A DNA stretch of 64,000 bases. It comes from Desmonostoc muscorum LEGE 12446. Lineage in GTDB: Bacteria > Cyanobacteriota > Cyanobacteriia > Cyanobacteriales > Nostocaceae. Made by a program: the position numbers and the translations under genes. The stretch lies in contig NZ_JADEXS020000001.1 in the NCBI RefSeq assembly GCF_015207005.2, positions 6,347,001 to 6,411,000 on the forward strand, read 5' to 3'. Below the pieces are notes generated by a model. The model worked only from the letters and a program-made list of their open reading frames with translations. It searched no databases and was not told the origin of the DNA. Below are positions 1-41,610 of this stretch, piece by piece. Position 1 is the first letter of the stretch; each line of letters starts with the position of its first letter.

Positions 1-3000
1 AAAACCAATATTTTGACAATCTTCAAAAAACTGATATTGTCTTTGTGGGTCTAGCTCATGACTGGGTAAAATATCGTTAGGAGTTACGCTCCAGAAATGT
101 GCGATGATCGCTTGGCTAATCCAATTCTGTTCTTGCAGTGCTTTAAATAAACTATCATAGTCATCTCTTTGTTGGGGATTGATTGTATAACTAAAGTCAT
201 CAAGTTTAGCAAATTTATCTCCAACCCTCACAAAAATCACATCTTGACTCTGTTGTTTGAGTCGTTCGGCAATTTCGGCTCCTACTCCATAACTATCAAC
301 AAAAATTAACCAACTTAACTTTTCTTTTAGCAGTTTTTCGTGTTGAAATACCTCAACTGGTGTAGATTCTTTCCAGCGAGGAACATAAAACCAGTCAGCA
401 ATATCTGGCTTTTTATCTGAAGTTTTGGGCGACATCATTGCCAAGGTGGCATTTCGATTTACTTCAATCCAATAACGCTGACGCTCAAAGGGATAAGTAG
501 GTAAAGGTAGGCGATGACGCTTTTCATGTGCATAAAAACCAGACCAATCAATTTTAATTCCAACTAACCAAAGCCTACCCAAGGTATTAACTAAAAACCC
601 TACATCTGATTGCTGCTCTTGAGGATGTCTTATAGATGTTAATGTTATTACATCTGTTTGATGTTGTTTAGCCAAACTACTTAGCGTCCGCCCCGGTCCA
701 ACTTCTAACAATATTCGCTCTGGCTGTTTCAACAACTCAGAAATGCCTAAATTAAAGCATACTGGTTGCCTTAAATGCCTTGCCCAGTATTTAGGATTTG
801 TTGCTTGAGTTGCAGTAATCCAAGTTCCACTAATATTGGATATAAAAAGAATTTTTGGAGTATGAAGTTTTACTTTTTCTAATAACTGAGTGAAAGTCTC
901 AATGATGGGTGACATCATTTCGGAATGAAAGGCGTGAGATGTATGCAAACGCCTACAATTAACACCTATTTGTTCTAGCTTTTCTTGCAATTTATCTATT
1001 GCTTCTTGTGAACCAGACACTACACAAGAACAAGGTGCATTAATCGCAGCTAAAGAGATTTCTTTTTCTAGCAATTGTTGTATTTTTTGTTCTGGAAGCT
1101 GAACCGAAAGCATAGCACCACCAGGCAACTCTTGCATGAGTTTTCCTCGCATTGCTACTATCATCAAGGCATCTTCTAAAGCGAAAACTCCCGCTATAGT
1201 TGCAGCTACATACTCTCCGATACTGTGACCAATCATTACCTCTGGACTCACACCCCAAGCCATCCACAACTTAGCCATAGCATATTCAATTACAAACAAC
1301 GCTGGTTGAGTAATTGCTGTTTGCTGTAATTTTTGTGTTGCTTCTAAAACTTCTTCTTTGCTGGGATAAAGAACTGTACGCAGGTCTATTTCCAAGTAAG
1401 GTTTAAGCAGTTTGCAGCAGTAATCAATTTGCTCTTTAAATACCCTTTCATTTTCATATAATTCTCGACCCATATTTACATATTGTGAACCTTGTCCGGA
1501 AAACATAAACACAACGGAGCGATTACAAGGTTCTTGGTAATAAGTGAAAGCTCTTTGAGGATCTTGCAATGCGTTAATTGCATCTTCTTGGTTTTGACAA
1601 ACTACCATTCGGCGATGATTGAAAGTCCAGCGACCCACTTGCAAAGTATGAGCAACATCCGCAAGATTTACATCTAGATGATTTTGCAGATGATTAGTTA
1701 GATTTTCTGTAGCAGTTTCTAGTGCTGTATTCGTCTTAGCTGAAAGTAGTAATAATTGCCAAGTTCGAGAAGGACTAGAGGATTTAATGATGGGAGCTTC
1801 TTCTAAAATTATATGGGCATTTGTCCCACCAAAACCAAAGGAACTAACACCCGCACGGCGAGGAGTGCCGTTTGTTTTCCACTCTGATAATTGATTATTT
1901 ACATAAAAAGGACTATTGGCAAAATCAATTTTTGGTGATGGTTCTTCAAAGTTTAAACTGGGGGGAATTTGTTTATGTTTGAAGGCTAAAACAGTTTTAA
2001 TTAAACCTGCTACACCAGCAGTTGCATCTAAATGCCCAATGTTGGTTTTTACAGAACCAATGCCACAAAATCCTTTTTTCTGAGTTTTAGTACGAAAAGC
2101 TTGTGTTAACGCAGCGATTTCAACAGGGTCACCTAAAGAAGTTCCGGTTCCATGTGCTTCAATGTAGCTAATAGTATCGGGTTCAACTTCAGCCATCACT
2201 TGAGCTGCTCTGATTACCTTCGCTTGACCATTGACGCTGGGTGCGGTGTAGCTAACTTTATCTGACCCATCATTATTAATAGCGGAGCCTTTGATAATAG
2301 CATGGATGCAATCTCCATCTGCGATCGCTTCTTCTAACCGTTTTAAAACTACAAGACCTAAACCTCTTCCTTTTACGGTTCCCGCAGCCTTAGCATCAAA
2401 AGCACGGCAATGTCCATCAGGAGATTCAATTCCTCCCTCTTGATATAAATAACCGTCTGCTGTTGATATTGAAACTCCTCCTGCTAAAGCAATATCACAC
2501 TCACCACTCAGCAAACTTTGGCAAGCTAAATGTACAGCAACCAATGAACTTGAACAAGTAGTTTGAACTGCATAACTTGGGCCTTGCAAATTTAATTTAT
2601 AAGAAACAAGCGTAGTCACGTAATCTGGAGAAGTTGCTTTTTCTATTTGCTTATCACCCACAGAGGCTATCAGATCATAATTAGAATAAATATTAAGTAG
2701 GTAACTGCCAAAACTTGTACCAGCGTAAACTCCAATAGGTTTTTTATATATCTGTGAACTATAGCCAGCATTCTCAAGTGCTTTCCATGAATGCTCTAAG
2801 AAAAAACGCAGTGAAGGGTCCATGACTTCAGCTTCTCTAGGGCTAAAGTCAAAGAATGAAGCATCAAACAAATCTATACCTTGGACTAGACCTTCTGCTT
2901 TCACATAATTTGGGTCACCTAGTAATGCCGCATCTACACCTAAATCTTTTAATTCTTGGTCAATAAATCTGTGGATTGACTCTACTCCGTCTCGGAGATT

Positions 3001-3105
3001 TTGCCAAAATTGCTCGATATCTTCAGCTTCAGGAAAACAGCCACTCATGCCAATAATAGCTATTTCCAGACCAGTTGTATTATTGAAATATTCTGAATCT
3101 TTCAT
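1..3105 (-). CDS. Modular type I PKS, KS-AT-KR region (3' end outside window)
   Basis: Last visible gene of the cluster; it runs off the left edge, so about 1035 codons are seen. It starts at the ATG at 3105 (MKDSEYFNN), 21 bases after the stop of the NRPS gene at 3127-5892. My reading of the minus strand gives a ketosynthase with the active Cys in TTCSSS, then an acyltransferase with GHSIG near residue 623 and HAFH downstream, a pair typical of malonyl-CoA specificity. The stretch at about 1-500 matches the region before the KR Rossmann fold in the two paralogous PKS genes of this window (shared DWFYxPxWK motif), so a KR probably follows. Whether it also ends in ACP-E, or in a release domain, cannot be seen. 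Inferred role: one malonate extension after the diaminobutyrate module. Confidence 0.93.
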   Translation of the reverse strand, partial: MKDSEYFNNTTGLEIAIIGMSGCFPEAEDIEQFWQNLRDGVESIHRFIDQELKDLGVDAALLGDPNYVKAEGLVQGIDLFDASFFDFSPREAEVMDPSLRFFLEHSWKALENAGYSSQIYKKPIGVYAGTSFGSYLLNIYSNYDLIASVGDKQIEKATSPDYVTTLVSYKLNLQGPSYAVQTTCSSSLVAVHLACQSLLSGECDIALAGGVSISTADGYLYQEGGIESPDGHCRAFDAKAAGTVKGRGLGLVVLKRLEEAIADGDCIHAIIKGSAINNDGSDKVSYTAPSVNGQAKVIRAAQVMAEVEPDTISYIEAHGTGTSLGDPVEIAALTQAFRTKTQKKGFCGIGSVKTNIGHLDATAGVAGLIKTVLAFKHKQIPPSLNFEEPSPKIDFANSPFYVNNQLSEWKTNGTPRRAGVSSFGFGGTNAHIILEEAPIIKSSSPSRTWQLLLLSAKTNTALETATENLTNHLQNHLDVNLADVAHTLQVGRWTFNHRRMVVCQNQEDAINALQDPQRAFTYYQEPCNRSVVFMFSGQGSQYVNMGRELYENERVFKEQIDYCCKLLKPYLEIDLRTVLYPSKEEVLEATQKLQQTAITQPALFVIEYAMAKLWMAWGVSPEVMIGHSIGEYVAATIAGVFALEDALMIVAMRGKLMQELPGGAMLSVQLPEQKIQQLLEKEISLAAINAPCSCVVSGSQEAIDKLQEKLEQIGVNCRRLHTSHAFHSEMMSPIIETFTQLLEKVKLHTPKILFISNISGTWITATQATNPKYWARHLRQPVCFNLGISELLKQPERILLEVGPGRTLSSLAKQHQTDVITLTSIRHPQEQQSDVGFLVNTLGRLWLVGIKIDWSGFYAHEKRHRLPLPTYPFERQRYWIEVNRNATLAMMSPKTSDKKPDIADWFYVPRWKESTPVEVFQHEKLLKEKLSWLIFVDSYGVGAEIAERLKQQSQDVIFVRVGDKFAKLDDFSYTINPQQRDDYDSLFKALQEQNWISQAIIAHFWSVTPNDILPSHELDPQRQYQFFEDCQNIGF

Positions 3106-3126
3106 AATTAAGTTGACTGCTTGCTG

Positions 3127-5892
3127 TTAAACATTTTGTTGTCTCTTTTGCAAAAAGCGTTGCTTTAATCTAGCTTTACCAGCTTCTAATTGTTCATTTA
3201 ATTCATTGCTTTGATTTTCAAAGCTATCATCTTCTTCTTGACTTAAATATCTAGATATGGAAGTGATTGTTGGATATTTAAACAAGTCAGTTATTGCTAA
3301 GTCTGGTTTAAAAATTTCTCGGAGTTTGCTGTAAACTTGAAGTACATTTAGTGAATGACCGCCAAGGTCAAAAAAGTTATCTTGAATGCCGACTTTCTCC
3401 ACCTTGAGGATTTTTTGCCAAATATCCGCAATCGTGTGTTCCATCTCATTTCGCGGCAATACGTAAGCTGTTTCTAGTACTGGGCGAAGATTATCTGGTT
3501 TTGGTAGAGCTTTCCGGTCTACCTTCCCGCTAGGTGCTAGGGGCAGATTTTCTAGCATCACAAAGGCAGAAGGTAACATGTGGTCAGGTAACTTTTCTTT
3601 TAAGAAATTACGCAATTCACTAATACTAGGAACTGGTTCTATTTTCGGAACTACATAGGCAACAATTAGCAAGTTACCCGGTTCATCTTCTTGAACTATT
3701 ACTACATTTTCACGTACATTCGGATGTTGATTTAAAAATGTCTCAATTTCGCCAAGTTCAACTCGGAAACCACGAATTTTTACTTGATGGTCAATCCGTC
3801 CCAGGAATTCAATATTTCCATCAGGCAGCCACCTGCCTAAATCTCCAGTTTTATAGATTAAATCCTGGCGATTTGGTGGTAACTTTTTCCTCGCATCAGG
3901 AAATGGGTTGGGAACAAAACTTAAATTAGTTTTTTCTTGATTTTTCCAATACCCCGCACCTACACCAATTCCCGACACACAAATCTCTCCAGGAGCGCCA
4001 ATAGGTAATAGTTGCATTTGCTCATCAAGAATGTAGAGATTTAAGTTAGCTAATGGTTTACCAATTGGCACCGTTCGCTGATTTTCACCAAAAGGCTGGT
4101 TAACAATAAACTGAGTAATATCATCAGCAGCTTCGGTAGGCCCATAAGCGTTAACAATTTTAATTTCAGGATATATCTGGAGCCACTTATTTACCCAACT
4201 TACTGATACTGGTTCTCCTACAACCATCATCCATTTCAGATGAGGTAATTCTCTTTCCTGAATTTCCAGATGGAAAGTATATTCAAGTAAGCCGCCAAAT
4301 AATGCTGGTACTAATTCAACTACTGTAATTTTTTCTGATTGAAGTACTTTAAGTAGTTTATCAGGAATCGCAACAGTTTCTACATCTACTATTACTGTCT
4401 TGCCACCAATTAAAAGCGGTGCTAAAAATTGCCATACGGAAATATCTGTCGAAGAAGGAGCGCTTTGGAGAAAACAAAATTCTTCTGTTAATTGCAATTC
4501 ATCGAATTGGGCATAAATATGATTAATTGCACCATCATGTCTGACAATTGCCCCTTTTGGTAATCCTGTAGACCCAGAAGTATAGAGCATATAAGCTGGG
4601 TCAGTAGCATCATTAATAGATTTTATATTATCACTTGGTAAATGTTCAAAATCTAATTTATTATATATCTTTAATCCAGGGCGATCGCCAAGCACAGTCT
4701 GATCATTGATCAAACTATCTAAACAAATAATAGATGATAATTGTGAACAATCTTCTACTAAGTATGACAAAATATTTAATAACGAAGAATCTGTTAATAA
4801 AAACCTCACTTCGCTATTAGACAGCATATACTTAATTCGATTCGCTGGGTAAGTACTATCAATAGGTACATAAGCTCCACCTGCTTTGTAGATAGCAAGG
4901 ATAGCAATGAGAAAATTAATATCGCGGTCTTTAAAAATCCCTATAAACTCTCCTTTGCCAATTCCTAATTTCCGCAATAATGCAGCTAGCTGATTAGCTC
5001 GATGATTGAGTTCTTGATAAGTTAATTTTGTTTGTTCATGAACGACAGCTATATTGTTTGGAGTCTCAGATACTTGCTTTTCAAATAACTCATTTATTGG
5101 TTGCTCAAGTGGATAGTCTTTAGTATTCTTGTTATATTTTTTTAATAAAATTTCTTGTTCAGAGTCTTTTAAGAAAACAATATCAGAAATTTTAACATTA
5201 ACGTTGTCCAGACAACTTTCAAGAACATTAACATAACATCTGCTCATCAATTTGATATTTTTATCTTGAAACAGATATTCACTATATTCTATATTTAAAC
5301 TAATATTTTCACCGTTAACTGTAAAAGAAATTGTGATGTCATTAGTGAGTTGATTTAACTTTGTTTTCTGATGAATATTTTCTAGTAAGACTACTATATC
5401 AAAAATTGGGCATCGATTAGGAATTGTTGGTATTTCTAATAAATTAATTAATTGATTAAAATCATATTTATGATGACTGTAAGCAGCTATGGTAGCATCT
5501 TTAACTCGTAAAACAAAATCTTTGAATGAAAGCTCAGGTGCGACTTGGGTACGCAAAGGAATTACTTTGCTATTTACGTCATCTGTCGCAATTTTCTCAT
5601 GTACTGGTATGCCAAGAATTAGATCATTGTTTCGCGTATATTTTGGCAGCAATATCTTCAATGCAGATACAAGTATTAAATAGATTGAAAAGTAAGAACC
5701 TTTAGCAAGTTTAATGATTGCTTGAGATAAATCATTTGATAAATCAAAGCTCAGAGATTTTTTCTTACCACTGGAAAATAAAGGTCTTACATAGTCCAAC
5801 ATCAAATTTGTTTCTGGTAGTTCCCCTGAGAGTTTGTTTATCCAATAAATTTTTTCAGAGAATGTGTCATTTGATTGTAGATGTATACCCAT
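3127..5892 (-). CDS. NRPS: C-terminal half of a C domain, A (2,4-diaminobutyrate), PCP
   Basis: 921 residues. Residues 1-240 match only the C-terminal lobe of a condensation domain; no HHxxxDG is present and the protein starts in the middle of the fold. An adenylation domain follows (YTSGSTGLPKG near 439), then a PCP with the Ser in GGHSL near 847. I derived the ten-residue specificity code by aligning to GrsA-type motifs: D-I-W-E-M-V-A-D-D-K. The known pyoverdine/syringomycin Dab code is DIWELTADDK, so Dab is the likely substrate. The neighbouring gene at 5942-7198 encodes an EctB-like transaminase that would make Dab, which supports this independently. The missing C activity may come from the free-standing C protein at 8132-9535. 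The substrate call is inference from motifs. Confidence 0.92.
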   Translation of the reverse strand: MGIHLQSNDTFSEKIYWINKLSGELPETNLMLDYVRPLFSSGKKKSLSFDLSNDLSQAIIKLAKGSYFSIYLILVSALKILLPKYTRNNDLILGIPVHEKIATDDVNSKVIPLRTQVAPELSFKDFVLRVKDATIAAYSHHKYDFNQLINLLEIPTIPNRCPIFDIVVLLENIHQKTKLNQLTNDITISFTVNGENISLNIEYSEYLFQDKNIKLMSRCYVNVLESCLDNVNVKISDIVFLKDSEQEILLKKYNKNTKDYPLEQPINELFEKQVSETPNNIAVVHEQTKLTYQELNHRANQLAALLRKLGIGKGEFIGIFKDRDINFLIAILAIYKAGGAYVPIDSTYPANRIKYMLSNSEVRFLLTDSSLLNILSYLVEDCSQLSSIICLDSLINDQTVLGDRPGLKIYNKLDFEHLPSDNIKSINDATDPAYMLYTSGSTGLPKGAIVRHDGAINHIYAQFDELQLTEEFCFLQSAPSSTDISVWQFLAPLLIGGKTVIVDVETVAIPDKLLKVLQSEKITVVELVPALFGGLLEYTFHLEIQERELPHLKWMMVVGEPVSVSWVNKWLQIYPEIKIVNAYGPTEAADDITQFIVNQPFGENQRTVPIGKPLANLNLYILDEQMQLLPIGAPGEICVSGIGVGAGYWKNQEKTNLSFVPNPFPDARKKLPPNRQDLIYKTGDLGRWLPDGNIEFLGRIDHQVKIRGFRVELGEIETFLNQHPNVRENVVIVQEDEPGNLLIVAYVVPKIEPVPSISELRNFLKEKLPDHMLPSAFVMLENLPLAPSGKVDRKALPKPDNLRPVLETAYVLPRNEMEHTIADIWQKILKVEKVGIQDNFFDLGGHSLNVLQVYSKLREIFKPDLAITDLFKYPTITSISRYLSQEEDDSFENQSNELNEQLEAGKARLKQRFLQKRQQNV

Positions 5893-5941: not shown

Positions 5942-7198
5942 CTATTTTGATATACATTCATCGAAGGCTGTTTTAATAATTGAACAACCCTTTTGTAAAC
6001 TGGACATATCAATTACTAAAGGGGGCAAAATTTTAATTACGCTATCATTTCTGCCTGCTTTTTCAATGATTAATCCTAGTTCAAAACAGCGGGATGTGAT
6101 ACGTTGAGATAAATTGCGATCGCCTAAATTTTTCACATCAATTCCCCAAATCATTCCAATTCCCCGAATTGCGATTTTTTCACTAATTGATGCTATTTCT
6201 TGAGTGAGAAAATTTTTCAAAAAAAGCTCTTTAACTTTCACATCCTGTTCAAAATCATAACTTTCTCGATACTCCAGAGCCGCTGTTGCTCCGATAAATG
6301 CTAATTGATTACCTCTAAAAGTACCATTATGTTCACCTGGTTTCCAAATATCCAACTCTGGTTTAATTAATAATAGTGACATGGGAAACCCATACCCGCT
6401 AATTGATTTAGAGAGTACTACCATATCGGGAACGATGTCTGCTCTTTCAAAAGAAAAGAAAGACCCAGTTCGACCGCAGCCTACTTGAATATCATCGCAG
6501 ATTAATAAGATATCATTTTCATCACACAACTTTCTTAATCTTTGCATCCATTCAGTGGGAGCCACAATAACTCCACCTTCCGCTTGCACCGTTTCAAAGA
6601 TTATTGCTGCTGGTTTTTCAATTCCAGAATTAATGTCATTTAAAACCGATTGTATATATTCTATTGTGTCAAAACTTTCCATGAATCCATAAGGATAAGG
6701 TATAAATGTTACATTACTTGATGTCCCAATTGCACCTGCTCGAATTCCGGTATTACCACTAATTGATAGGCTGCCCAAAGTCATTCCATGATATGCTCCC
6801 ATGAATGAGAATATACCCGGTCTTTGCTTAACTTTTCTGGCTAATTTTAAAGCAGCTTCCACAGCATTTGTTCCTGTTGGGCCGCAAAATTGAATGCGAT
6901 AATCTAGTTTTTTGGAACTGAGTACTACCTCATCAAACTTGGCTAAAAACTTTTCTTTTGCCGAAGTATACATATCCAATCCGTGTGCAATTCCATCGGC
7001 ATCTAAATATGAAATAACTTTTTGTTTTATATAGTCATGATTATGTCCATAATTTAAAGCCCCTGCTCCTGCAAAAAAATCAAGATATTCTTTCCCTGAT
7101 TCTGAATAAATTATAGAACCTTTAGCTCTATGAAAGATATCCGGAAAATTATGGCAATAGCTTCTGACGTTAGATTCACGCTTTTCAAATATGTTCAT
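5942..7198 (-). CDS. EctB-like diaminobutyrate-2-oxoglutarate transaminase (class III, PLP)
   Basis: 418 residues, close to the usual EctB length. It would convert L-aspartate 4-semialdehyde to L-2,4-diaminobutyrate with glutamate as amino donor. Seen: the EctB-type N-terminal pattern GALNYGHN followed by DGIAHGLDM, GPTGTNAVEAA for cofactor phosphate binding, GAYHGMT, the DDIQVGCGRTG segment, and the PLP lysine in SKSISGYG near residue 262. No ectA or ectC gene is nearby, so ectoine synthesis is not the role. It lies 49 bases upstream of an NRPS gene whose A-domain code points to Dab, so it probably supplies that precursor. A related Dab transaminase with slightly different substrate use cannot be excluded. 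Confidence 0.93.
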   Translation of the reverse strand: MNIFEKRESNVRSYCHNFPDIFHRAKGSIIYSESGKEYLDFFAGAGALNYGHNHDYIKQKVISYLDADGIAHGLDMYTSAKEKFLAKFDEVVLSSKKLDYRIQFCGPTGTNAVEAALKLARKVKQRPGIFSFMGAYHGMTLGSLSISGNTGIRAGAIGTSSNVTFIPYPYGFMESFDTIEYIQSVLNDINSGIEKPAAIIFETVQAEGGVIVAPTEWMQRLRKLCDENDILLICDDIQVGCGRTGSFFSFERADIVPDMVVLSKSISGYGFPMSLLLIKPELDIWKPGEHNGTFRGNQLAFIGATAALEYRESYDFEQDVKVKELFLKNFLTQEIASISEKIAIRGIGMIWGIDVKNLGDRNLSQRITSRCFELGLIIEKAGRNDSVIKILPPLVIDMSSLQKGCSIIKTAFDECISK

Positions 7199-7238: not shown

Positions 7239-8120
7239 TTAGGAAACATAATTAAGATAAGATTTATAGAATTTAAAAATTATCTGAGGAGGTACTTTAA
7301 ATACTAAGCCCATCGTTAATAACCAGTTATAGTATAAGTTTGGAACTGGCATTCCTTTTTTTATAGCTGCTAGAGCCGTTAGTGAAGTTTTTTGAGTATG
7401 CCAATCGATATTAAAAGAAATCGACATATCTAAACTCCTAACATGATGCAGCGTTCCAGGAGGCATATATAAAATCTCTCCAGGATTGACAATAAATTTA
7501 ATCGGTCTGGCGTTTTTGTAGTCAGGATATTTATTGAAATCTGGATTTTCTGGATTAACAAGAAACCATCTCCAGCCTTGGCGATAACAATATTTAGCAT
7601 CTTCAGGTAATAAGATAGTAAATTGTTTGCGTCCAACAATTTGGAAAAAAATATTGTTAGTCAGAAGGCAATCAAAATGTAGTGGTGTAATACTATTAGA
7701 AGAACCTAAGAAAAATTGGCAGTAACGCCACCACTTATACCGATACCATTTTGGTAAATATTCAAATGGAAATGGTTTAACATCTTCTATTAGTGAAGGT
7801 ATTAAGCTAAATAAAGGTAGATCATGGCAATATGGCGGTAGAGGATGATTTTTAGCATCTTTTTCATAATTTTCTATTAATTCTATATATTTTCTCATTG
7901 TCAAACGACATATCTCGATTTGTTTATTGCTAAATTTTTTAGCATAAATATTTAGGTCAGGAGATAAATTATTGAGGTATTTTAAAGACCATTTATCAAA
8001 GCCGTTCCAGTTAGATACTACTCCGGAAATTATGACTGGTCTACCTAGTTCAACATAATTATTCTTAAATTCATCACTTGAGAGTTTATACCTTCTTTCT
8101 ATTGCAGATGAAACAATCAT
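7239..8120 (-). CDS. Cupin_8/JmjC-like Fe(II)/2-oxoglutarate oxygenase
   Basis: 293 residues with the cupin-like (cupin_8, FIH/JMJD-type) layout. The N-terminal region has RPVIISGVVSNW, which corresponds to the family's usual 'P-hhh-G--W' start. The metal-binding HxD lies in PLHFDC near residue 148 and the distal His in PPGTLHHV near 225. Members of this family hydroxylate side chains, often at the beta carbon. It is one of three cupin_8 genes in the cluster. It lies 12 bases from the free C-domain gene and 40 bases from the transaminase gene, so it is probably co-transcribed and may act on a residue bound to the Dab or preceding module. Substrate is unknown. Confidence 0.85.
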   Translation of the reverse strand: MIVSSAIERRYKLSSDEFKNNYVELGRPVIISGVVSNWNGFDKWSLKYLNNLSPDLNIYAKKFSNKQIEICRLTMRKYIELIENYEKDAKNHPLPPYCHDLPLFSLIPSLIEDVKPFPFEYLPKWYRYKWWRYCQFFLGSSNSITPLHFDCLLTNNIFFQIVGRKQFTILLPEDAKYCYRQGWRWFLVNPENPDFNKYPDYKNARPIKFIVNPGEILYMPPGTLHHVRSLDMSISFNIDWHTQKTSLTALAAIKKGMPVPNLYYNWLLTMGLVFKVPPQIIFKFYKSYLNYVS

Positions 8121-10870: not shown

Positions 10871-10899
10871 AAGAAAAACAAGAAATATGTTTTCTCAAG

Positions 10900-10912: not shown

Positions 10913-10923
10913 TTAAGGGGGGG

Positions 10924-12313: not shown

Positions 12314-12346
12314 TCAAAAACTCAATCATTATTCAAATTACTACAA

Positions 12347-32367: not shown

Positions 32368-33282
32368 TTATTCCTCCGTGTCCTCTGCGTTCTCTGCGGT
32401 TCGTTCCTCATAACTTCCTTTAATATCACTAAGTAAAGTCACAATTCTCCGACGCTTATCATTAAAAGATTTTCGCCCATGTAAAAATCTGGAATTATCA
32501 ATCATCACCAAATCTCCAGACATCCAGGGAATAAAACCAGTCAAATTATCCATGATTTTCTGGATTTCATTGATAACTTTTACAGGAATTGCAGAGCCAT
32601 CTGCAAAAGTTACGATTCCTCTAGGATTTCTGTATTCCGAAATTATGCTATTAGCAAATGCATCTTGATGACCATACTTTGTTTTGATGACACCAGAGCA
32701 AACGTATTCTAAAATAATTGAGTCATCTTGATTAATTTTGTAACTTAAACTTTCGATAGATTCTAATGTTTTTGTGACATCATCTATCGTAGCATTTGCC
32801 CCTAAAAATTGCTGCCAATGAGAAGCAAGAAATTTTTGGACATAGCGAATTTTTTGGGAAAGGAATAATTGTCTCAATTCTTCACTCATTGCTTTCCATA
32901 CTTCAACACCATCCCAAAATAAAGTTTCACCACCTTCTGCTGCTGGCACAGCACAACAAAACCAAACTACATCAGGCCTAAAAGGAGAATTAGCATTTTC
33001 ACAATGGGGAGCAATATAATGCATTCCTGAATCTACTAAGGTGATAAACTGATTGTTTAAATCAACAATCGGTCTACTGTATTGACCCATGAATGTAGAA
33101 CTAAATTGCTCCGCAAATGCTTTCATTTTTTCATAATTCACATGAAATCCTCGAAACATAAGCATACCAGATGATTTGAAATTTTCTAAAATTTTTGATA
33201 CTGGTAATTGCAGAATATCTTGCCCAGTGTCATTAAAGATAATATTTCCGCTACTATTTTTTAACAATTCTGCTGCGATCAT
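32368..33282 (-). CDS. TauD-family Fe(II)/2-oxoglutarate oxygenase
   Basis: 304 residues of the TauD/TfdA (clavaminate-synthase-like) fold. The metal triad is visible as HCE in PHCENA near residue 93 and His in FLHGRKSF near 267, with the 2OG-binding Arg probably in RRRIVTL. Related NRPS-associated enzymes hydroxylate Asp, His, Asn or Arg at the beta carbon, often on a carrier protein. It is the only TauD-type gene in the cluster and could partner with the interface-like domain of the Thr protein. The last 13 residues (EERTAENAEDTEE) come from a common dispersed repeat rather than family sequence, so the original stop was probably lost. Confidence 0.9.
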   Translation of the reverse strand: MIAAELLKNSSGNIIFNDTGQDILQLPVSKILENFKSSGMLMFRGFHVNYEKMKAFAEQFSSTFMGQYSRPIVDLNNQFITLVDSGMHYIAPHCENANSPFRPDVVWFCCAVPAAEGGETLFWDGVEVWKAMSEELRQLFLSQKIRYVQKFLASHWQQFLGANATIDDVTKTLESIESLSYKINQDDSIILEYVCSGVIKTKYGHQDAFANSIISEYRNPRGIVTFADGSAIPVKVINEIQKIMDNLTGFIPWMSGDLVMIDNSRFLHGRKSFNDKRRRIVTLLSDIKGSYEERTAENAEDTEE

Positions 33283-33314: not shown

Positions 33315-34022
33315 TTATTTAACAGCTAAAATAGGCTTCTCAATAAATCTAATTAGCCAAGGAAATTCCAAGAACAAGCCTAAAAGATTACCTATTATGA
33401 TATTTGCCTCACTTGCTGCATCTAAGACCATCTCTAAATTCCACTCATTAACTGTGTTGAAGCCCAAGGCAATGCTGTTTTCCAAGTTTTCAGCTTGATG
33501 CCACCACATAGAAGGAATATAGAGAATTTCTCCAGAATTTAAGAGAAATTCCACTGGTTTTGCATTAGCGTACAATGGGAATTTTTCTAAATCTGGCTTG
33601 AAAGCATCAACTTGCCCATCGTATACAAATTTTTGTTGATCGGGTGATAACAAAACAAATCGCTTACTTCCAGAAATTACTCCCAACCATCCTTGTGTAC
33701 AAAATGAATCAATATGGAGACCTAATGATGATTCTTTGCGACCGATAATCAGATAAATATATTGCTCGAAACCATATTTATTCAACAATTCTTCTGGCAA
33801 GTTTTGTAATAAATTATCGCAGTAAATTGGAACTTCATAATCTTCGTAAAGCTCAGGATGTTCAAACATTGTCCATATTAAATTACGTTTATTTCTGAAC
33901 CATATTCTTCTCAAAAAATATGTACTTATTAGTATGATTAAAATCAATGCTAATATCGCAAAAGCTGAATCAACGATCGTGAGTAATGAATGAGAAATTG
34001 TAGCTAACTTTGCTGTCTGCAT
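33315..34022 (-). CDS. Membrane-anchored cupin_8/JmjC-like protein
   Basis: 235 residues. A hydrophobic stretch near residues 18-42 (FAILALILIILIS) followed by RRIWFRNKR looks like a single membrane helix with a positive cytoplasmic border. The catalytic part has HxD in LHIDSF near 103 and the distal His in MWWHQAE near 171, so the iron triad is complete, but the usual N-terminal cupin_8 segment is missing and replaced by the helix. It lies 23 bases downstream of the FAAL megasynthase gene and 32 bases upstream of the TauD gene. A membrane location may suit hydroxylation of an acyl chain or a lipidated intermediate; this is inference. Confidence 0.82.
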   Translation of the reverse strand: MQTAKLATISHSLLTIVDSAFAILALILIILISTYFLRRIWFRNKRNLIWTMFEHPELYEDYEVPIYCDNLLQNLPEELLNKYGFEQYIYLIIGRKESSLGLHIDSFCTQGWLGVISGSKRFVLLSPDQQKFVYDGQVDAFKPDLEKFPLYANAKPVEFLLNSGEILYIPSMWWHQAENLENSIALGFNTVNEWNLEMVLDAASEANIIIGNLLGLFLEFPWLIRFIEKPILAVK

Positions 34023-34044: not shown

Positions 34045-37000
34045 TTATTTACGTGATTTATGAGCTTGTTTTTGTCGGTTTAAAGCCAATTTTTGTTTTT
34101 CAGAGCGATTACGAAGTTCTTTAAACGAAGGTTGCTCTTGTTGCTCTTTATTAAGATATTTTGCTAACAAACTGATGGTAGGATATTGAAACATTTCTAC
34201 CACTGAGATATCACGTTGCAGCTGTTCTCGTAGTTGTGTGTTTACCTGAGAGATCAGTAAAGAATGTCCGCCCAGATCGAAGAAATTATCGTTAATACTA
34301 ACTTTCTCGATACCAAGTACTGTTTGCCATGTACTAGCAATTGTCTCTTCTAACTCTGTTTCAGGAGCTACATAGAGGTTGTTTTGGGTAGAGTAACTCT
34401 CTGGTAACGGTAAGGCGCGACGATTGACTTTGCCATTGGGGGTTAAAGGAAGTGCGTCTAAGAAGATAAAAGCCTTTGGCACCATGTATTCAGGTAGTTT
34501 TTCTCTGAGAAAATCTCGGAGTTGAGGCACTCTTTCACGAGCTAAACTTCCTTGCCAGGGAGTATTAGCATAGTCGCGCCAAGGACGGGACAATGAAGGT
34601 AGAGCATTAGGTAAGGAAAAACACTGTGCAACATTAGGCGTAGAACGCTTGAAGATAACGTCATAGCTGCCTACACTATTCCAAGTAATATGAACTGAAT
34701 AAGGTAGGTCTTTTTCTAATGCCCAGAATGCTTCTGGCTCTACGCTCCGACCTTCAAAGGAGTTTAAGACCTGTTTCATCTCACCTACAGTTTCCGGTGG
34801 CTCATTATTTGTTAACCACTGCACAATCTGAATATCTGCAATGACGCGAGCATTCGGTACATGGGCAAGACTTAAAATTTGGGGTGCAGTTTCTTCGAGC
34901 ATTTGGCGGACATCAGAAACGGTTACCTCTTCCTTGTTCCAATCCAACGAAGGGATATCCGCCGTTGGAACTGGTTTATTGTCCACATGCAGAATCACGT
35001 CGTAACGGAATTTAGTTAGTTCATTCTGGGAGCAACCGCGCTCTAGTAAAATATCAACATGACTAATTTTAGGTAGATGCTGTTTGAGAGCAGTAAAGAA
35101 AGCGGGATCGATGACTAATTGTTTTTCCTCAAACAACTGTTTCTGCACACGTTGTTGCAAGGTTTCTCTAGAAAGAGTCTCTGGTGCCCGATAAAGTTGA
35201 ACTGAAGCGTGGAATGCTTCTAATAAGGGCAGACTGCGAACATCTCCCAGAAAAATGAAGCCGCCTGGTTCTACAGCTTTGACTGCTTTCTCCAAAACCT
35301 GGAGCAAATAATCAATGCTTGGGAAGTACTGAGCCACAGAGACAATTAACACGCTATCAAAGCTATTCTCTGCCAGATCATCAAAATCTATAGCACTTCT
35401 TTGGCTGAGTGTGACTCCTGTTAATGGCTGTTCTAAAGTATCTAACTGCTGTTGGAGGATTTGCAGGGCATTTTCTGAGGGGTCTGTTGCCCAGTACTGC
35501 TGGCAATGAGGGGCAATGTTGAAAAGCATCAGGCCGCTACCACCACAACCTATTTCTAAAACCCGCCTGGGCTGCAAACCTAAGATGCGCCCGGTGGTTT
35601 GCTCCATCCACTCGCGCACTTGTTCGTCTGGAATCGATGCTCCTGTGTAGCTACTTTCCCAACCTTTAATATAGAAGCCGGAATTTTGAGTACTATCAAA
35701 CTTTTTATAGAGGCTATCAAAGACAGTTTGCCACTCTAAGGTTTGTTGAGTGTCTAAGGCTTCTAGTGTTTCTAGCTGATACTGCCCGACCACATAAGCA
35801 ATCAAGCGCTGGTGGTCTGAATCATCGTTATGAGCAACAACCACAGCTTCTCGAACAGCCGGGTGTTGATTCAGTAAGGCTTCTATTTCTCCTAATTCAA
35901 TGCGAAAACCCCGAATTTTGATTTGGCGATCGCTACGTCCAACAAATTCCAGGTTACCATCCCTGAGGTAGCGAACTAAATCGCCTGTTTTGTAAAGACG
36001 CTCCCCAGGTTTTGAACTGTAGGGATTAGGAATAAACTTTGCTGCTGTTAAGTCCGATCGCTCCAAATAACCCCTAGCAACACCAACACCCCCAATATAC
36101 AATTCGCCAGGAGTTCCTACAGGCACGAGTTGCAGTCCGGGATCGAGGACGTAGGTTTCAACTTGGGGAATGGCTTTACCAATGGGCACTTCATCAGCCG
36201 GCGATACTGATATGTCACAGACTGTGGCCACAATTGTTGTTTCTGTAGGACCATAAGTGTTGACAAGGCGTACCCGTTGACCTACTTGCTCCTGCCATGT
36301 TGTCAGGTGTTTTCTATCGGCTCTTTCACCCCCAATAATTACTAATCGCAGAGTATCAGGAAGCACCAAATTTATTGTTGCTAATTCAGCAGTTAGTTGA
36401 TGCCAAAAGGCCGTAGGCAAATCTAAGACTGTTATCTCCCAATCACCACAATGCTGTAAAAATTGAGGCATCGAACTGATTGTCTCATCTGTACGCAGTA
36501 TGAGAGTAGCACCGCAGATCAGACAGGGAAAGATTTCTTCGGCAGCGGCATCAAAGCTGATGGAAGCAAATTGCAGCACCCTATCGCTTGCTTGTAGTCC
36601 GTACTCTAAACAAGCAATCTTGGCATAACTGGCTAAAGACTGATGCTGAATCGTTACACCCTTGGGAGTTCCCGTGGAACCAGAGGTGTAAATAATATAG
36701 ACAAGATTTTCTGGTTGGGTGTGATTGACAAGATTTTCCTGACTTTGTTGGGCGATCGCGTTGTCTGTATCCACGCAGACGATTTGCGACTCCAGCGGAG
36801 GCAGAACAGCTAGCAGTGATTTTTGGGTGAGAAGCACTGGCACTTGAGCATCTTTCAAAATTAGAGCGAGGCGTTCTTTTGGATAAGCCGGATCTAAAGG
36901 TACATAAACTCCTCCGGCTTTGAGGATTCCTAAAAGTGCGATCGCCATTTCTAAGGAGCGCTGTATGCAAATACCAACTCGCACTTCTGCACCAACTCCC

Positions 37001-40000
37001 AAGGAACGCAGATAATGTGCTACTTGATTCGCACGCTGATTCAATTCTCTGTAGGTTAAATGCTGGTTTTGAAAGACTACTGCAACTGCATTTGGTGTCC
37101 GCTCTACTTGTGCTTCAAATAGTTGATGAATGCATTGTTCGGAGAAATTGGGAATTGGAGATTGATTTCTACTCAGTTGTAGTAAATCCTGACAATCTGC
37201 CGCGTTCAATAGTGGTAAGTTGGATAGCCGAGCTTGAGGATTAGCAGCAATGCCTGAGAGTAAATTCTGAAAATGCCTCAGCATCCGGCTAATGGTAGCA
37301 GCATCAAATAAATCAGTATTGTAATAGAAGGATGCTGCCACTTCTTGCTTTGTAATCTCAATGGACAAGCTCAAATCAAACTGCGCTGTTTCGGTTTCTA
37401 TTTTTACCAAGCTCAATGCCAAACCAGGTATTTCTGGTAACTGTGAGTAATCTTGAACATTGAACATGACTTGAAACAGCGGTGTCCGACTTGTATCCCG
37501 CTCTGGTTGCACTGCTTCTACCAGTTGATCGAAGGGCAAATCCTGATGTGTGTAAGCTCCTAAAGCTACCTTTTTCACCCGCGTCAGCAACTCATCAAAA
37601 GTTGGGTTACTGCTGATATCTGTACGCAGTACTAAGGTATTGACAAAAAAGCCAATTAACCCTTTGATTTCATCACGATTGCGATTAGCGATGGGTGAAC
37701 CGACGGCAATATCATCTTGTCCTGTGTAACGGTAGAGGAAAGTCTGAAAGGCTGCCAATAGCAACATAAATAAGGTTACACCCTCTTGACGAGCGATCGC
37801 CTTGAGTTCTTTAATTACTTCTTCAGATAACTCAATAGATTGTTGAGCGCCGTGTGAGGTTTGCACCACCGGTCTTGGTCGGTCAGTAGGTAATTTTAAT
37901 GCTGCTGGTATACCCTCAAGTTGTTGCTTCCAATAAGAGAGTTGACTTTGGAGAATTTCCCCTTGTAACCATTGTCGCTGCCAGTGTGCAAAGTCTTTGT
38001 ATTGGATAGAGATTTCTGGTAATGGTGAAGCAGTTCTAGTTAAGAATGCTTTGTAAAATAATGCAATCTCTTGTAAAAATACTTCAGTAGACCAGCCATC
38101 AGAGATGATGTGGTGCATCTCTAGCAAAAGAATATGCTCTTGCTGTGCTAGGCGCAAAAGTTTAGCACGGAACAATGACCCTTGGGTTAAGTCAAAAGGT
38201 CGTTGACTTTCTTGAGTCAAAAATTCTTGAACTACAATATCGTCGTGTGGTTCTATATTTATTACTGATAAAGATAATTTTAGGGAAGAGGCAATAATTT
38301 GTCCTGGCTGTCCATCGATTTTTGTAAATGTAGTTCTTAAAGTTTCATGTCGCCGGATAATTTCATTCAGACTTTCTTCTAGTAAAGTAATTTCAAGTTG
38401 ACCTTTGAGATTGACAGCTAAAGAAATATTATAAGCTGGATTACCTGGTTCTAATTGGTCAAGGAACCATAGTCGCTGCTGGGCAAAAGATAGGGGATAA
38501 ACTTCTGCTGGCTGGATTTGGATCAGAGACTTTGAAGGGATGAAAGCTTCTGTGGTCAGTTGAGCGAGTATTTTTGTTGCGAGCGATCGCAAACTCATTC
38601 CTTCAAATAAATCTGCTATAAAAACTTCTATTTCTAAGTCAATTTCAATCCGATTTTTTAATTCAAATACTTTTAAAGAATCCAGTCCCAGGGTGCTTAA
38701 TGGTTCTTGTACATTAATATCATCTGCTGTAATTGAAAGTAGTACCGCAAATAATTCAATTAAATAACCTTCTAAAACAGGTTGACATTCTCTTGGAGAA
38801 AGTGCCAACAATTCAGAACGCTGTAATCGAGTTTCTTTTCTGGCAATATCACTAATTTTCAGAATATTACTTGCAACTATATTCAGTTCACCATTTTCAA
38901 ATTGAACGCGAGTTGCACGACGTTGAATCTTTCCGCTAGAAGTTTTAGGAATACTACCTGGTTTAATTAAAACTACGCCATAAACTTGTACTTCATGTTC
39001 TTCAGTAATTGCTTGGCGAATTGCACTAGTTACTTCTGGTAAATTTGGCTTGGCGCGAAACTCTAATTCTTGTACAACTACTAATCTTTCTTCGTTATTA
39101 ACTTCTACTGTAAATGCTGCATTAGCACCGGAACGCAATGATGGATGACTGCGTTCTGCGGTTAATTCTATATCTTGCGGGTAAAGATTGCGACCACGAA
39201 TAATAATTAAATCTTTGGCTCTACCTGTAATGAAAAGTTCGCCATTGTCCAAAAAACCTAAATCTCCCGTCCGGAGAAAAGCACCTTTACCTGTGTCTGA
39301 TAAATAAGCGCCGAAGGTTTCTTCTGTCTCTTGCAAACGATTCCAATAACCTTGACCAACACTCGGTCCAGATACCCAAATTTCCCCGATTTCATCCAGT
39401 TGACAAGTATTGAGTGTTTCCGGATTGGCAATTACAATCTCTTGTTTTGGTATGACTCGACCACAACTGACAAAATGACAAATATTCTCATCTTCAGGAG
39501 ATGATTGAACTACGCGATCGCATTCTAATGCAGACTTCTGGACTGTTTTGATTGTCGGTGCTGTTGCCTTCTCTACGCCAGAAACCATGAGAGTTGTTTC
39601 AGCCATTCCATAACAAGGATAGAATGCCTCTTTGCGGAAGCCACACTCGGCAAAAGCTGCGGCAAACCGTTCTAAAGTATCATGGCGAATCGGTTCAGCG
39701 CCGTTAAACGCCACACTCCAACTACTCAAGTCAAGAGTTTGTTTTTGTTCAGGGGTAATTTTTTGAGTACATAATTCATAGGCAAAGTTAGGCCCGCCAC
39801 TGGTTGTCCCTTTGTACTCAGAGATAGCCTGCAACCAACGATATGGACGTTGGAGAAAGGAGGCTGGAGGCATGATGATGCAAGGAAAACCTCCATACAA
39901 AGGTTGCAATATTCCACCAATCAGACCCATATCGTGGTACATCGGTAACCACGTCACGAACTTACTTTCTGGGGAATGCTCCATGAATTGGTAAGTCGTA

Positions 40001-40605
40001 GCAGCATTGTGCAATAGGTTCCTATGACTAATCATTACACCCTTGGGTGTGCCTGTAGAACCAGAGGTGTATTGTAGAAAAGCTAAGGTGTCTTGATGAA
40101 TAGAAGGTTGTTGCCAAGTATCTTCTATTCCCTGTGCAAGGTTATCTGTAGTCAACCACTGCAAAGATTCTAAGTCAGTCTTTTGTGTCATTAAAGACCG
40201 GACTGTTGGTAAAATTTCTGTTGTTGTTAGAGCGATTGCTGCTTGTGCATCTATGGAAATCGCCTTGATTCTGGGTGTATTACGCTCATTTCGCGGTGGA
40301 TATGCAGTTACTGCCACAACTCCCGCATACAAGCAACCGAAAAAAGCAACTAAAAAATCTAGTCCTGCTGGATAAAGCAGTAAAGCCCGTTCTCCAGTCA
40401 AACCCAATGCTTGCAATTGAGCTGCTATTCGACGCGATCGCCTATCTAATTCTTGGTATGTTAGTGTCGCTTTTTCTGTTTCCCCATCTAATAAAAAGGT
40501 AAAAGCGTCTCTGTCTGGTTGCGTTGAGCTTCTAAAACGCAGTAATTCGACAACTGTACAAAAGTTGTCCAAAGAATTAAATAAGCTCTGAGAAAATTTA
40601 TTCAT
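34045..40605 (-). CDS. Loading megasynthase: FAAL-ACP-C-A-(N-methyltransferase)-PCP
   Basis: 2186 residues. Residues 1-590 are a fatty acyl-AMP ligase (YTSGSTGTPKG, PMYHDMGLIGG, YGMAETT, KDLIIIRGRN), which loads a free fatty acid onto the ACP that follows (LGLDSLK near 643). Then a C domain (HHIISDGWS near 833) and an A domain (YTSGSTGTPKG near 1312). Its derived code is D-A-E-D-I-G-T-I-V-K; the acidic residues at 239 and 278 recall Lys/Glu/Gln-type pockets but I cannot name the substrate. A methyltransferase is inserted between A8 and A10 (VLEIGCGGSG near 1687), the usual place for N-methylation. A PCP (GGHSL near 2110) ends the protein. It should start the assembly line by making an N-acyl, N-methyl aminoacyl thioester. 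Confidence 0.96.
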   Translation of the reverse strand: MNKFSQSLFNSLDNFCTVVELLRFRSSTQPDRDAFTFLLDGETEKATLTYQELDRRSRRIAAQLQALGLTGERALLLYPAGLDFLVAFFGCLYAGVVAVTAYPPRNERNTPRIKAISIDAQAAIALTTTEILPTVRSLMTQKTDLESLQWLTTDNLAQGIEDTWQQPSIHQDTLAFLQYTSGSTGTPKGVMISHRNLLHNAATTYQFMEHSPESKFVTWLPMYHDMGLIGGILQPLYGGFPCIIMPPASFLQRPYRWLQAISEYKGTTSGGPNFAYELCTQKITPEQKQTLDLSSWSVAFNGAEPIRHDTLERFAAAFAECGFRKEAFYPCYGMAETTLMVSGVEKATAPTIKTVQKSALECDRVVQSSPEDENICHFVSCGRVIPKQEIVIANPETLNTCQLDEIGEIWVSGPSVGQGYWNRLQETEETFGAYLSDTGKGAFLRTGDLGFLDNGELFITGRAKDLIIIRGRNLYPQDIELTAERSHPSLRSGANAAFTVEVNNEERLVVVQELEFRAKPNLPEVTSAIRQAITEEHEVQVYGVVLIKPGSIPKTSSGKIQRRATRVQFENGELNIVASNILKISDIARKETRLQRSELLALSPRECQPVLEGYLIELFAVLLSITADDINVQEPLSTLGLDSLKVFELKNRIEIDLEIEVFIADLFEGMSLRSLATKILAQLTTEAFIPSKSLIQIQPAEVYPLSFAQQRLWFLDQLEPGNPAYNISLAVNLKGQLEITLLEESLNEIIRRHETLRTTFTKIDGQPGQIIASSLKLSLSVINIEPHDDIVVQEFLTQESQRPFDLTQGSLFRAKLLRLAQQEHILLLEMHHIISDGWSTEVFLQEIALFYKAFLTRTASPLPEISIQYKDFAHWQRQWLQGEILQSQLSYWKQQLEGIPAALKLPTDRPRPVVQTSHGAQQSIELSEEVIKELKAIARQEGVTLFMLLLAAFQTFLYRYTGQDDIAVGSPIANRNRDEIKGLIGFFVNTLVLRTDISSNPTFDELLTRVKKVALGAYTHQDLPFDQLVEAVQPERDTSRTPLFQVMFNVQDYSQLPEIPGLALSLVKIETETAQFDLSLSIEITKQEVAASFYYNTDLFDAATISRMLRHFQNLLSGIAANPQARLSNLPLLNAADCQDLLQLSRNQSPIPNFSEQCIHQLFEAQVERTPNAVAVVFQNQHLTYRELNQRANQVAHYLRSLGVGAEVRVGICIQRSLEMAIALLGILKAGGVYVPLDPAYPKERLALILKDAQVPVLLTQKSLLAVLPPLESQIVCVDTDNAIAQQSQENLVNHTQPENLVYIIYTSGSTGTPKGVTIQHQSLASYAKIACLEYGLQASDRVLQFASISFDAAAEEIFPCLICGATLILRTDETISSMPQFLQHCGDWEITVLDLPTAFWHQLTAELATINLVLPDTLRLVIIGGERADRKHLTTWQEQVGQRVRLVNTYGPTETTIVATVCDISVSPADEVPIGKAIPQVETYVLDPGLQLVPVGTPGELYIGGVGVARGYLERSDLTAAKFIPNPYSSKPGERLYKTGDLVRYLRDGNLEFVGRSDRQIKIRGFRIELGEIEALLNQHPAVREAVVVAHNDDSDHQRLIAYVVGQYQLETLEALDTQQTLEWQTVFDSLYKKFDSTQNSGFYIKGWESSYTGASIPDEQVREWMEQTTGRILGLQPRRVLEIGCGGSGLMLFNIAPHCQQYWATDPSENALQILQQQLDTLEQPLTGVTLSQRSAIDFDDLAENSFDSVLIVSVAQYFPSIDYLLQVLEKAVKAVEPGGFIFLGDVRSLPLLEAFHASVQLYRAPETLSRETLQQRVQKQLFEEKQLVIDPAFFTALKQHLPKISHVDILLERGCSQNELTKFRYDVILHVDNKPVPTADIPSLDWNKEEVTVSDVRQMLEETAPQILSLAHVPNARVIADIQIVQWLTNNEPPETVGEMKQVLNSFEGRSVEPEAFWALEKDLPYSVHITWNSVGSYDVIFKRSTPNVAQCFSLPNALPSLSRPWRDYANTPWQGSLARERVPQLRDFLREKLPEYMVPKAFIFLDALPLTPNGKVNRRALPLPESYSTQNNLYVAPETELEETIASTWQTVLGIEKVSINDNFFDLGGHSLLISQVNTQLREQLQRDISVVEMFQYPTISLLAKYLNKEQQEQPSFKELRNRSEKQKLALNRQKQAHKSRK

Positions 40606-40692
40606 TTTTATATGAAACTTAACACCCTGTACAACTTAGTATTCTCAGCAAAATATCAATCAAACATCGTCTTCAAAAATCCCATAAAATCC

Positions 40693-41610
40693 TTACTTCA
40701 TTTGAAAAAATTTCAATACACTGAAATCCCCAGCAGAAATTGAATGATATAAATAATGAGGTGCGGTGTGAAAAAAAACTGATAACATCTTTTTTTGCCA
40801 GAAAAAATCTTGAATTTTCACATAATACCAAAATGATAGTGATATATTATCATCTACTGCGGTCATGTGATGCCACCAAAAAGGAGGTAGGTAGAGTATT
40901 TCTCCCGGTTGAAGTACAAATTCTATTTTTTCTTGCCAAGGGAATTTCGGAAATAATTCCAAATCTAAAGAATCCGGATTTACCTTGCTACCATATAGTG
41001 CGCCAGAACGATCTTCTAGAGGTGGATAGAATGATAAATAATTTGTAGGTGGATATAAAAGTATTCTTTTTCTCCCTCGAATTTGAGCAAAAATATTATG
41101 TTCTGCGTCAAAGTGAAGGCTACTATTTGAAGAAAAATGTTTTTTTGATAAACCAAACCACAACCTAACTAATGGCTTACTATTGAAGTATTGTGGATAA
41201 TTTATATCTCCAACAATTTCAGGAAAACGCTCTTCAAAAACTGCCTCATTTAAATAACATTCTACCCTGTTTTGAGTATTGGTATCTTCTATATAGTTAT
41301 TTATATACTCCGCCAATTTCATTTCTTTATGAGGTTCGTAACTACCTTCATAAGCAAAGTTCTTATAATCATTCCAAAAATCTTGTTTAAAAAATCGCAC
41401 TGGAACTATATTATTTCCACACTTTTCTATCAGATAATCATTTGACCAATGCTTATAAGCACCCCAATATTTAGCAACATCTTCAATTATAAAAGGCTGA
41501 TATTGTTTCGCTATCTCTGAAAATTGCTTTCTACTAGGATTTTTGATTCTTAGAATTGATTTACTAGCTTGAACTTGCATAAAAACTCCAACATCTTTAC
41601 TGGTTTTCAA
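40693..41610 (-). CDS. Cupin_8/JmjC-like Fe(II)/2-oxoglutarate oxygenase
   Basis: 305 residues, first gene of the minus-strand cluster. The N-terminal part has QPFIIEDVAKYWGAYKHWS, the usual cupin_8 opening. The iron ligands are HxD in LHFDAEH near 164 and His in FWWHHMTA near 246, and RGRKRILLYPP is the typical strand between them. Family members include FIH-like asparagine/aspartate beta-hydroxylases and tRNA-modifying enzymes; being in an NRPS operon suggests a tailoring hydroxylase. It lies 87 bases upstream of the loading gene, and its promoter must be in the 888-base gap shared with the divergent receptor gene. Confidence 0.87.
   Translation of the reverse strand: MKTSKDVGVFMQVQASKSILRIKNPSRKQFSEIAKQYQPFIIEDVAKYWGAYKHWSNDYLIEKCGNNIVPVRFFKQDFWNDYKNFAYEGSYEPHKEMKLAEYINNYIEDTNTQNRVECYLNEAVFEERFPEIVGDINYPQYFNSKPLVRLWFGLSKKHFSSNSSLHFDAEHNIFAQIRGRKRILLYPPTNYLSFYPPLEDRSGALYGSKVNPDSLDLELFPKFPWQEKIEFVLQPGEILYLPPFWWHHMTAVDDNISLSFWYYVKIQDFFWQKKMLSVFFHTAPHYLYHSISAGDFSVLKFFQMK

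Follow-up and report, generated by a model that had tools for sequence, protein, structure and literature searches.

A probable siderophore-type lipopeptide synthetase in Desmonostoc muscorum, member of a mosaic family in Nostocales, with a replaced module segment and polyketide-linked epimerization domains

The stretch of DNA analysed here, which we call the window, comprises 64,000 nucleotides (positions 6347001-6411000) of the 9.6-Mb genome of the cyanobacterium Desmonostoc muscorum LEGE 12446 and carries a hybrid line of nonribosomal peptide synthetases (NRPS) and polyketide synthases (PKS) with a transport cassette beside it. Sequence comparisons make it likely that this cluster encodes a siderophore-type lipopeptide synthetase, which belongs with its Nostocales relatives to a mosaic family akin to the beta-hydroxyaspartate clusters. 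The siderophore-type assignment is the best reading because a TonB gene is part of the cluster or its neighbour in 15 of the 18 loci viewed, namely the window and 17 relatives (G644, G278, G706, G704, G078, G655, G634, G300, G659, G167, G413 and L060-L065; these G and L numbers denote relatives' genomes or loci, and L001 the sequence left of window position 1). In this strain one segment of the line is replaced relative to G706, a genome labelled as the same species, and two of the PKS proteins carry epimerization-type domains, one of them interrupted by an insertion sequence.

Domains were called by Pfam scans, adenylation codes were computed from aligned positions of the adenylation domains, and NCBIfam cut-offs were applied to the EctB, PanP, TonB and PvdQ assignments. 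The line lies on the minus strand and runs from a cupin gene at 41610 to a thioesterase at L001:581; the suggestion of an earlier sequence-only reading that it continues past the left edge thus held, the line ending ~17.4 kb left of position 1 with a beta-Ala module. In gene order (A, adenylation; ACP and PCP, acyl and peptidyl carrier protein; AT, acyltransferase; C, condensation; E, epimerization; KR, ketoreductase; KS, ketosynthase; TE, thioesterase; FAAL, fatty acyl-AMP ligase; Dab, diaminobutyrate) its parts are:

40693..41610, minus strand: Cupin_8 (JmjC-like) oxygenase A, with an HxD...H triad recognised by eye; 86-96% identity in G278, G644 and G706
34045..40605, minus strand: FAAL-ACP-C-A(DAEDIGTIVK)-N-methyltransferase-PCP, the start of the line; 97.6% in G706
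33315..34022, minus strand: short Cupin_8 gene B, within a 0.74-kb stretch absent from G706
32368..33282, minus strand: stand-alone TauD oxygenase, with H93, E95 and H268 as likely metal ligands; 48-67% in eight named loci
26325..32291, minus strand: PKS1, KS-AT(malonyl type)-KR-ACP-E, the E domain being residues 1514-1958
25374..26294, minus strand: putative methyltransferase (weak PF13578 match, below cut-off)
20708..25339, minus strand: NRPS2, DCL-type C-A(Gly)-PCP-C, missing the C-terminal fused TauD of G278, G644, G704 and G706
17177..20443, minus strand: NRPS3, degenerate (interface-like) C-A(Thr)-PCP, with a swapped A core
12390..17162, minus strand: PKS2, KS-AT-KR-ACP and the start of an E domain, cut by the insertion sequence
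10844..12442, no strand assigned: insertion sequence of 1.6 kb, its DDE_Tnp_ISAZ013 transposase in two frames
9532..10734, minus strand: rest of the PKS2 E domain; 93.5% to the intact PKS2 of G706
8132..9535, minus strand: stand-alone DCL-type C domain
7239..8120, minus strand: Cupin_8 oxygenase C; 85-97% in G278, G644, G655 and G706
5942..7198, minus strand: EctB-type diaminobutyrate transaminase (TIGR02407), for Dab supply
3127..5892, minus strand: NRPS4, half C-A(Dab)-PCP
1..3105, minus strand, continuing to L001:16453: PKS3
L001:16429-14762: PanP
L001:14629-10277: PKS4
L001:10243-5657: PKS5
L001:5563-4790: methyltransferase
L001:4690-581: C-A(VDWIISLANK, beta-Ala)-PCP-TE

The two PKS-linked E domains, the three Cupin_8 genes, TauD, EctB and the methyltransferase had not figured in the sequence-only reading.

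The module order proposed in that reading (acyl, N-methyl-X, malonate, Gly, Thr, malonate, Dab, malonate) is matched by the Pfam scans and by the aligned codes DAEDIGTIVK (N-methyl-X), DILQLGMIWK, DFWNIGMVHK, DIWEMVADDK and VDWIISLANK, of which the last four are ones we take to specify Gly, Thr, Dab and beta-Ala; the DCL and LCL classes of the C domains are likewise our assumption. Supply genes found independently agree with the codes, EctB (574 bits on TIGR02407, cut-off 552) with Dab and PanP (615 bits, cut-off 606) with beta-Ala, and the AT motifs of PKS1, 2, 3 and 5 are of what we take to be the malonyl type. Relatives of the FAAL protein show DAEDIGTIVK again, alongside DAEDIGSIVK and the Orn code DVGEIGSIDK, and on that ground we guess that N-methyl-X is probably cationic, similar to Orn or Lys. 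In the predicted pathway the FAAL would load a fatty acid, the line would add N-methyl-X, malonate, Gly, Thr, malonate, Dab, the polyketide units of three PKS modules and beta-Ala, and the TE would release a product that might leave the cell through an ABC or MATE exporter, bind metal and be re-imported by TonB-FecBCDE, with the Ntn acylase perhaps trimming its acyl chain.

The TonB receptor, FecBCDE-type importer and exporter that had been placed next to the cluster were found by profile searches at 42499-55338:

42499..45318, plus strand: TonB-dependent siderophore receptor with AMIN domain, divergent from the cluster
45466..46416, plus strand: FecB-like periplasmic binding protein
46379..46798, plus strand: DUF1636 protein
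47811..49604, minus strand: MsbA-like ABC exporter, 597 aa
49678..50550, minus strand: FecE ATPase
50671..51711, minus strand: FecD permease
51712..52758, minus strand: FecC permease
53221..55338, plus strand: Ntn acylase (PF01804), nearest to cephalosporin/GL-7-ACA acylases

An 888-bp intergenic gap separates the cluster from the divergent TonB gene, whose product scores 441 bits on TIGR01783 (cut-off 223.5), and the cassette flanks the cluster of G644, G704 and G706 in identical gene order. The FAAL, NRPS and PKS domains together with this TonB/Fec cassette support the broader idea of a lipopeptide line with siderophore-type transport. The acylase had been called PvdQ-like; an acylase is indeed present, but the exact label does not hold, since it scores 254 bits on the NCBIfam PvdQ equivalog (cut-off 950) and, against solved structures, 675 and 670 bits with cephalosporin/GL-7-ACA acylases compared with 217 bits for the best PvdQ. 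Its presence in 39 of 60 family genomes (E <= 1e-100) and its distance of no more than 60 kb from a PKS1-like hit in 10 of 17 genomes (judged by eye among the matches listed, with draft contigs hiding distances) suggest a link to the FAAL/PKS clusters of Nostocales, perhaps for acyl trimming. The receptor is recombined: ~300 N-terminal residues are 96-100% identical to G706 and the remainder 56-85%, with 86-98% identity to G644 throughout. The cassette also encloses a DUF2887/DUF4351 gene (46926-47798), found in G644 and G706 as well.

Across the loci, TonB identity falls as low as 40%; G634 has TonB as fragments only, and G413 and L065 are short contigs. Relatives that can be named include Scytonema hyalinum, Mojavia pulchra, Chlorogloeopsis fritschii PCC 6912, Anabaena lutea, A. 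azotica, Coleofasciculus, Nostoc sp. JL34 and Richelia sinica FACHB-800. They share parts of a FAAL, PKS-E, TauD and TonB core and, as read from these genes, the Nostocales relatives form a mosaic family.

Beta-hydroxyaspartate lipopeptides of the cyanochelin type had been named as the nearest idea, with the caveat that no Asp code was visible. The kinship stands, in that relatives share these core parts; the Asp code and the module hydroxylase do not. None of the five amino-acid A domains carries an Asp code, which is explained by the replacement of segment 18050-22092 relative to G706, and no TauD precedes an interface-Asp module, a different TauD preceding PKS1; adjacent TonB/ABC siderophore transport is present. 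By such marks of membership, read from domains and codes, the cluster is not a cyanochelin. The cyanochelin B cluster of Leptolyngbya NIES-3755, as described in part of its source, resembles the window in its FAAL start, PKS/NRPS hybrid line and adjacent transport cassette, and the window's relatives in its fused and free Asp hydroxylases (PMC12628792). It differs in that the window has neither an Asp code nor a hydroxylase beside that module, shows no Cys cyclization domain and ends in beta-Ala-TE rather than a reductase (PMC12628792). The antiSMASH rule for NRP metallophores, in the portion cited, relies on a hit to a CyanoBH_Asp1/2, IBH or TBH profile (PMC12971057). Partial accounts of other lines offer further likenesses: the fatuamide A cluster, a metallophore line of PKS/NRPS type, resembles the window in having TauD, TonB and ABC genes but has a salicylate start and a Cys heterocycle (PMC11877528), and Anabaena PCC 7120 has a nine-gene siderophore NRPS/PKS cluster under FurA, all2649-all2641 (PMC4005646), and a receptor-FecB-E-D-C gene group (PMC3610870). 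The all2649-all2641 cluster is likened to ours by description rather than homology, and the window has no significant FurA site.

The replaced segment carries the clearest difference between this strain and its nearest relative:

18050..22092, no strand assigned: replaced segment by blastn comparison, 4.0 kb here versus 4.9 kb in G706

The window is 97.7% identical to G706 over 1-10844, 96.1% over 12442-18050, 96.7% over 22092-32415 and 95-98% across three further pieces up to 56000; identity breaks at 18050 and 22092, between which no blastn match to G706 exceeds the reporting threshold of 400 bits. The segment spans the last C domain of NRPS2, the site of the lost TauD, the degenerate C domain and the A core, and its counterpart in G706 holds a C domain, the fused TauD hydroxylase, then a degenerate C domain and an A core of the Asn/Asp type with the code DLTKIGEVGK. 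The Gly protein of G278, G644, G704 and G706 ends in a C domain and fused TauD, after which come a degenerate C domain that lacks HHxxxDG and an A domain of the Asn/Asp type, and in G655 the C domain and TauD ahead of the Asn/Asp-type module are free-standing; in the window the TauD before NRPS3 is missing and the A code is that of Thr. Nothing close to the missing TauD turned up in a search of the genome (best match 30%).

In beta-hydroxylating modules a hydroxylase is followed by an interface domain, a C domain without HHxxxDG. The C domain of NRPS3 is of this interface type, reading LPSICTD where HHxxxDG is expected (a loose-pattern scan gave a chance NHxxxD match elsewhere in the domain). 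A degenerate C domain with an upstream TauD occurs in 11 of the 17 relatives viewed, mostly ahead of Asp/Asn-type A domains, and a TauD gene or fused TauD stands before the degenerate C domain in 13 of 13 cases in 11 relatives (12 directly, one by way of a cupin open reading frame) and in none of the window's one case. Among the best 120 of 1303 proteins matching this C domain, a sample biased to close relatives, the A codes that follow are Asn/Asp-like in 100, of other kinds in 19 and Thr in one, the window's own. Measured over 60 residues at a time against G655 and four of the nearest proteins, identity is 60-91% in the degenerate C domain and down to 18-50% in the A core; behind the A core it returns to 78-98% in G655, P0243 and P0246 and not in P0242 or P0256.

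It seems, from these alignments, that one recombined segment exchanged the Asn/Asp-type A core for a Thr core and removed the fused beta-hydroxylase in this strain. Because DLTKIGEVGK presumably reads as Asn rather than Asp, the residue before the swap may have been beta-hydroxy-Asn, and because Thr brings a beta-hydroxyl of its own, the swap and TauD loss may preserve this group without the enzyme. The two strains constitute a natural experiment with near-identical lines that differ in one swapped segment and, if the product is made, the swap would be a working example for NRPS engineering. The simple reading of the TauD at 32368 as a plain Asp hydroxylase was rejected: it is 23-25% identical to the Asn/Asp-module TauDs of G644, G278 and G655, and it precedes PKS1. 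The general phenomenon is already known from Nostoc, where the mosaic nostopeptolide/minutumamide clusters, in the part of the account cited, show cluster mixing and A-core swaps as here (PMC12184294); those clusters are not presented there as siderophores, and the window's swap differs in accompanying hydroxylase loss within one species. A swap coupled to hydroxylase loss was not found in the open-licence literature searched.

The C-terminal domain of PKS1 is an E domain by sequence (387 bits with PvdL, 313 bits with gramicidin S synthase 1) but departs from the canonical form in following KR-ACP rather than A-PCP and in carrying EGNGR and FLYLGN. Its motifs read IHHLAVD, LEGNGRE and FLYLGN, and the His, Asp, Glu and Tyr that we take to be catalytic are all present. 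Of the 239 E domains collected, 39 come after a KR and 179 after an A domain; the counts leave out the other 21, including the window's split PKS2 E, whose upstream domain is of another kind or not visible. Full-length homology, HHxxxD and Glu are shared by the PKS-linked domains and the canonical E domains of PvdL, GrsA and TycA: the PKS-linked domains retain the Tyr and, in HHxxxD, both His and the Asp in 39/39, and the Glu in 36/39. In contrast to those canonical domains, the PKS-linked ones follow KR-ACP, the His of EGHGR is Asn in 36/39 (His in 175/179 NRPS-linked domains), and the Asn of FNYLGQ is Leu in 35/39 (Asn in 175/179); the residue following HHxxxD is Val or Ile in 33/39 and Gly in 135/179. 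The window's split PKS2 E keeps FNYLG and reads VEDNGRD. In the E-domain tree 35 PKS-linked domains, PKS1 E among them, form one clade (support 0.955), four PKS2-type domains, the window's split one included, form a second (support 1.0), and one falls outside both; this tree does not support a single origin for the PKS-linked E domains as a whole (0.36). In the KR next to these E domains the Asn of YxxxN is His in 33/39, the exceptions being three PKS2-type domains, G167, P0017 and one gap.

The role of an epimerase after a polyketide module is a testable question that this clade raises. The main rival to a catalytic role holds that PKS-linked E domains are inherited docking attachments for the next DCL-type C domain and perform no chemistry, an explanation that we regard as a serious contender while giving it somewhat less than even weight. 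All 19 PKS-E genes with visible downstream sequence precede a C domain of the DCL-type profile built here (the profile was itself built from three of these C domains, and three, from G300, G659 and G413, gave no match to the HHxxxD pattern). Because the AT is of malonyl type, the extender should bring in no alpha substituent and hence no alpha stereocentre, and G644 and G704 lack the PKS2 E altogether. Docking alone accords poorly with the retention of the catalytic residues in nearly every PKS-linked domain and with omega, the nonsynonymous to synonymous rate ratio (Nei-Gojobori), which for PKS1 (10 pairs, four with saturated dS) is 0.15-0.24 in E against 0.12-0.41 in AT and 0.08-0.20 in KR. 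The PKS1-type E clade is under purifying selection; in PKS2 (three pairs) omega of E, 0.28-0.33, lies above that of its own AT (0.18-0.27) and KR (0.11-0.19).

We tentatively advance, as a doubtful proposition, that the PKS1-type E domains form a clade of repurposed epimerases acting on a polyketide intermediate; if true, this would place E-domain chemistry outside amino-acid modules. One candidate substrate, to be inverted, is an alpha-hydroxylated acyl-ACP made by a partner TauD or cupin oxygenase, proposed because TauD adjoins PKS1 in many loci (the window, G644, G706, G704, G078, G634 and L060-L064; in G278 only cupin A stands before the FAAL gene). Such a substrate is disfavoured as a rule because G659 has no intact oxygenase beside its PKS-E, with only TauD fragments ~24 kb away, and Cupin_8 or TauD may or may not be an obligate PKS-E partner. 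The second candidate is a former amino-acid alpha carbon, which would be activated by a beta-ketone if the KR with His in place of Asn does not reduce. No paper on the PKS-linked E clade was found in the open-licence literature, exact-string searches included.

Several observations weigh against the siderophore-type reading of the cluster as a whole. No hydroxamate, catechol or beta-hydroxy-Asp step is predicted in it, and beta-hydroxy-Asn is not, to our knowledge, a classic chelator. The 70 kb viewed of G167 contain no TonB gene. The receptor barrel is G644-like, yet G644 has an Asn-type module, so a receptor simply covarying with the Thr swap is not supported. Scans of the 888-bp intergenic region with an E. 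coli-type Fur box and a cyanobacterial FurA matrix were not significant (P 0.08 and 0.45), and the TonB-upstream regions of 11 loci held no convincing Fur/FurA site (lowest P 0.05, in L061, uncorrected for 11 loci). The absence of a known chelator from the predicted product and the Fur scans would suit a non-siderophore lipopeptide, for example an antifungal or a signal, whose transport genes are mere neighbours or serve import for another reason, and laxaphycins, which are likewise lipopeptides of cyanobacteria, are membrane-active according to the part of the source cited (PMC7524897). We nevertheless hold this alternative unlikely, given a TonB gene in so many of the loci even as its identity falls so low, and given Asp-type modules with TauD hydroxylases in several relatives.

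It is still a little less likely that the cluster is decaying and yields no full-length product, the insertion sequence in the PKS2 E domain and the swap with its lost TauD having broken the line: the insertion site is uninterrupted in G706, and PKS4 and PKS5 carry altered domains, but G644 and G704 are wholly without PKS2 E and yet keep the other line genes viewed there open, the PKS4 truncation is common to five relatives, and the other genes compared (MATE, SucFer and SDRb lying beyond the stretch compared) are 93-100% identical to G706, except NRPS2, NRPS3 and TonB, and except cupin B, the one gene of these that G706 lacks. The insertion sequence, of which the genome has four full copies at 100% (rounded), cuts the E domain of PKS2 so that the PKS2 protein ends in the first 47 positions of that domain, and the uninterrupted site in G706 shows a 4-base overlap. 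PKS2-type E is intact in G278, G655, G300 and G706; in G644 and G704 the gene stops after the carrier protein, so the line can apparently tolerate losing this domain and may still be working. In PKS4 (L001:10277-14629) the AT lacks its middle part and has GEGIG in place of GHSIG; because the gap is common to the profile matches of G644, G278, G655, G706 and G704 (slightly larger in G704), it is probably old, and loading in trans or a non-extending module is possible. In PKS5 (L001:5657-10243) the KR reads GGLESIE where GGxGxxG is expected, and because the motif is altered and no KR was found in the G644 and G704 counterparts (1076 aa), a beta-ketone is expected at this step.

A few observations concern the surroundings of these genes. 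The E. coli Fur consensus has one match with three mismatches in the whole window, at 12392 (0.03 expected), which we set aside because it lies inside the end repeat of the insertion sequence. P450, SDR and MATE genes lie left of the TE gene, and a psbA-type gene lies at window position 61788. The 0.74-kb stretch missing in G706 (33308-34046) holds the short Cupin_8 gene, with an N-terminal hydrophobic segment. The half C domain before the Dab A domain (3127-5892) also occurs in G078, G278, G300, G644, G655 (twice), G704 and G706, and upstream of these half C-A(Dab) proteins there is mostly a stand-alone DCL-type C gene.

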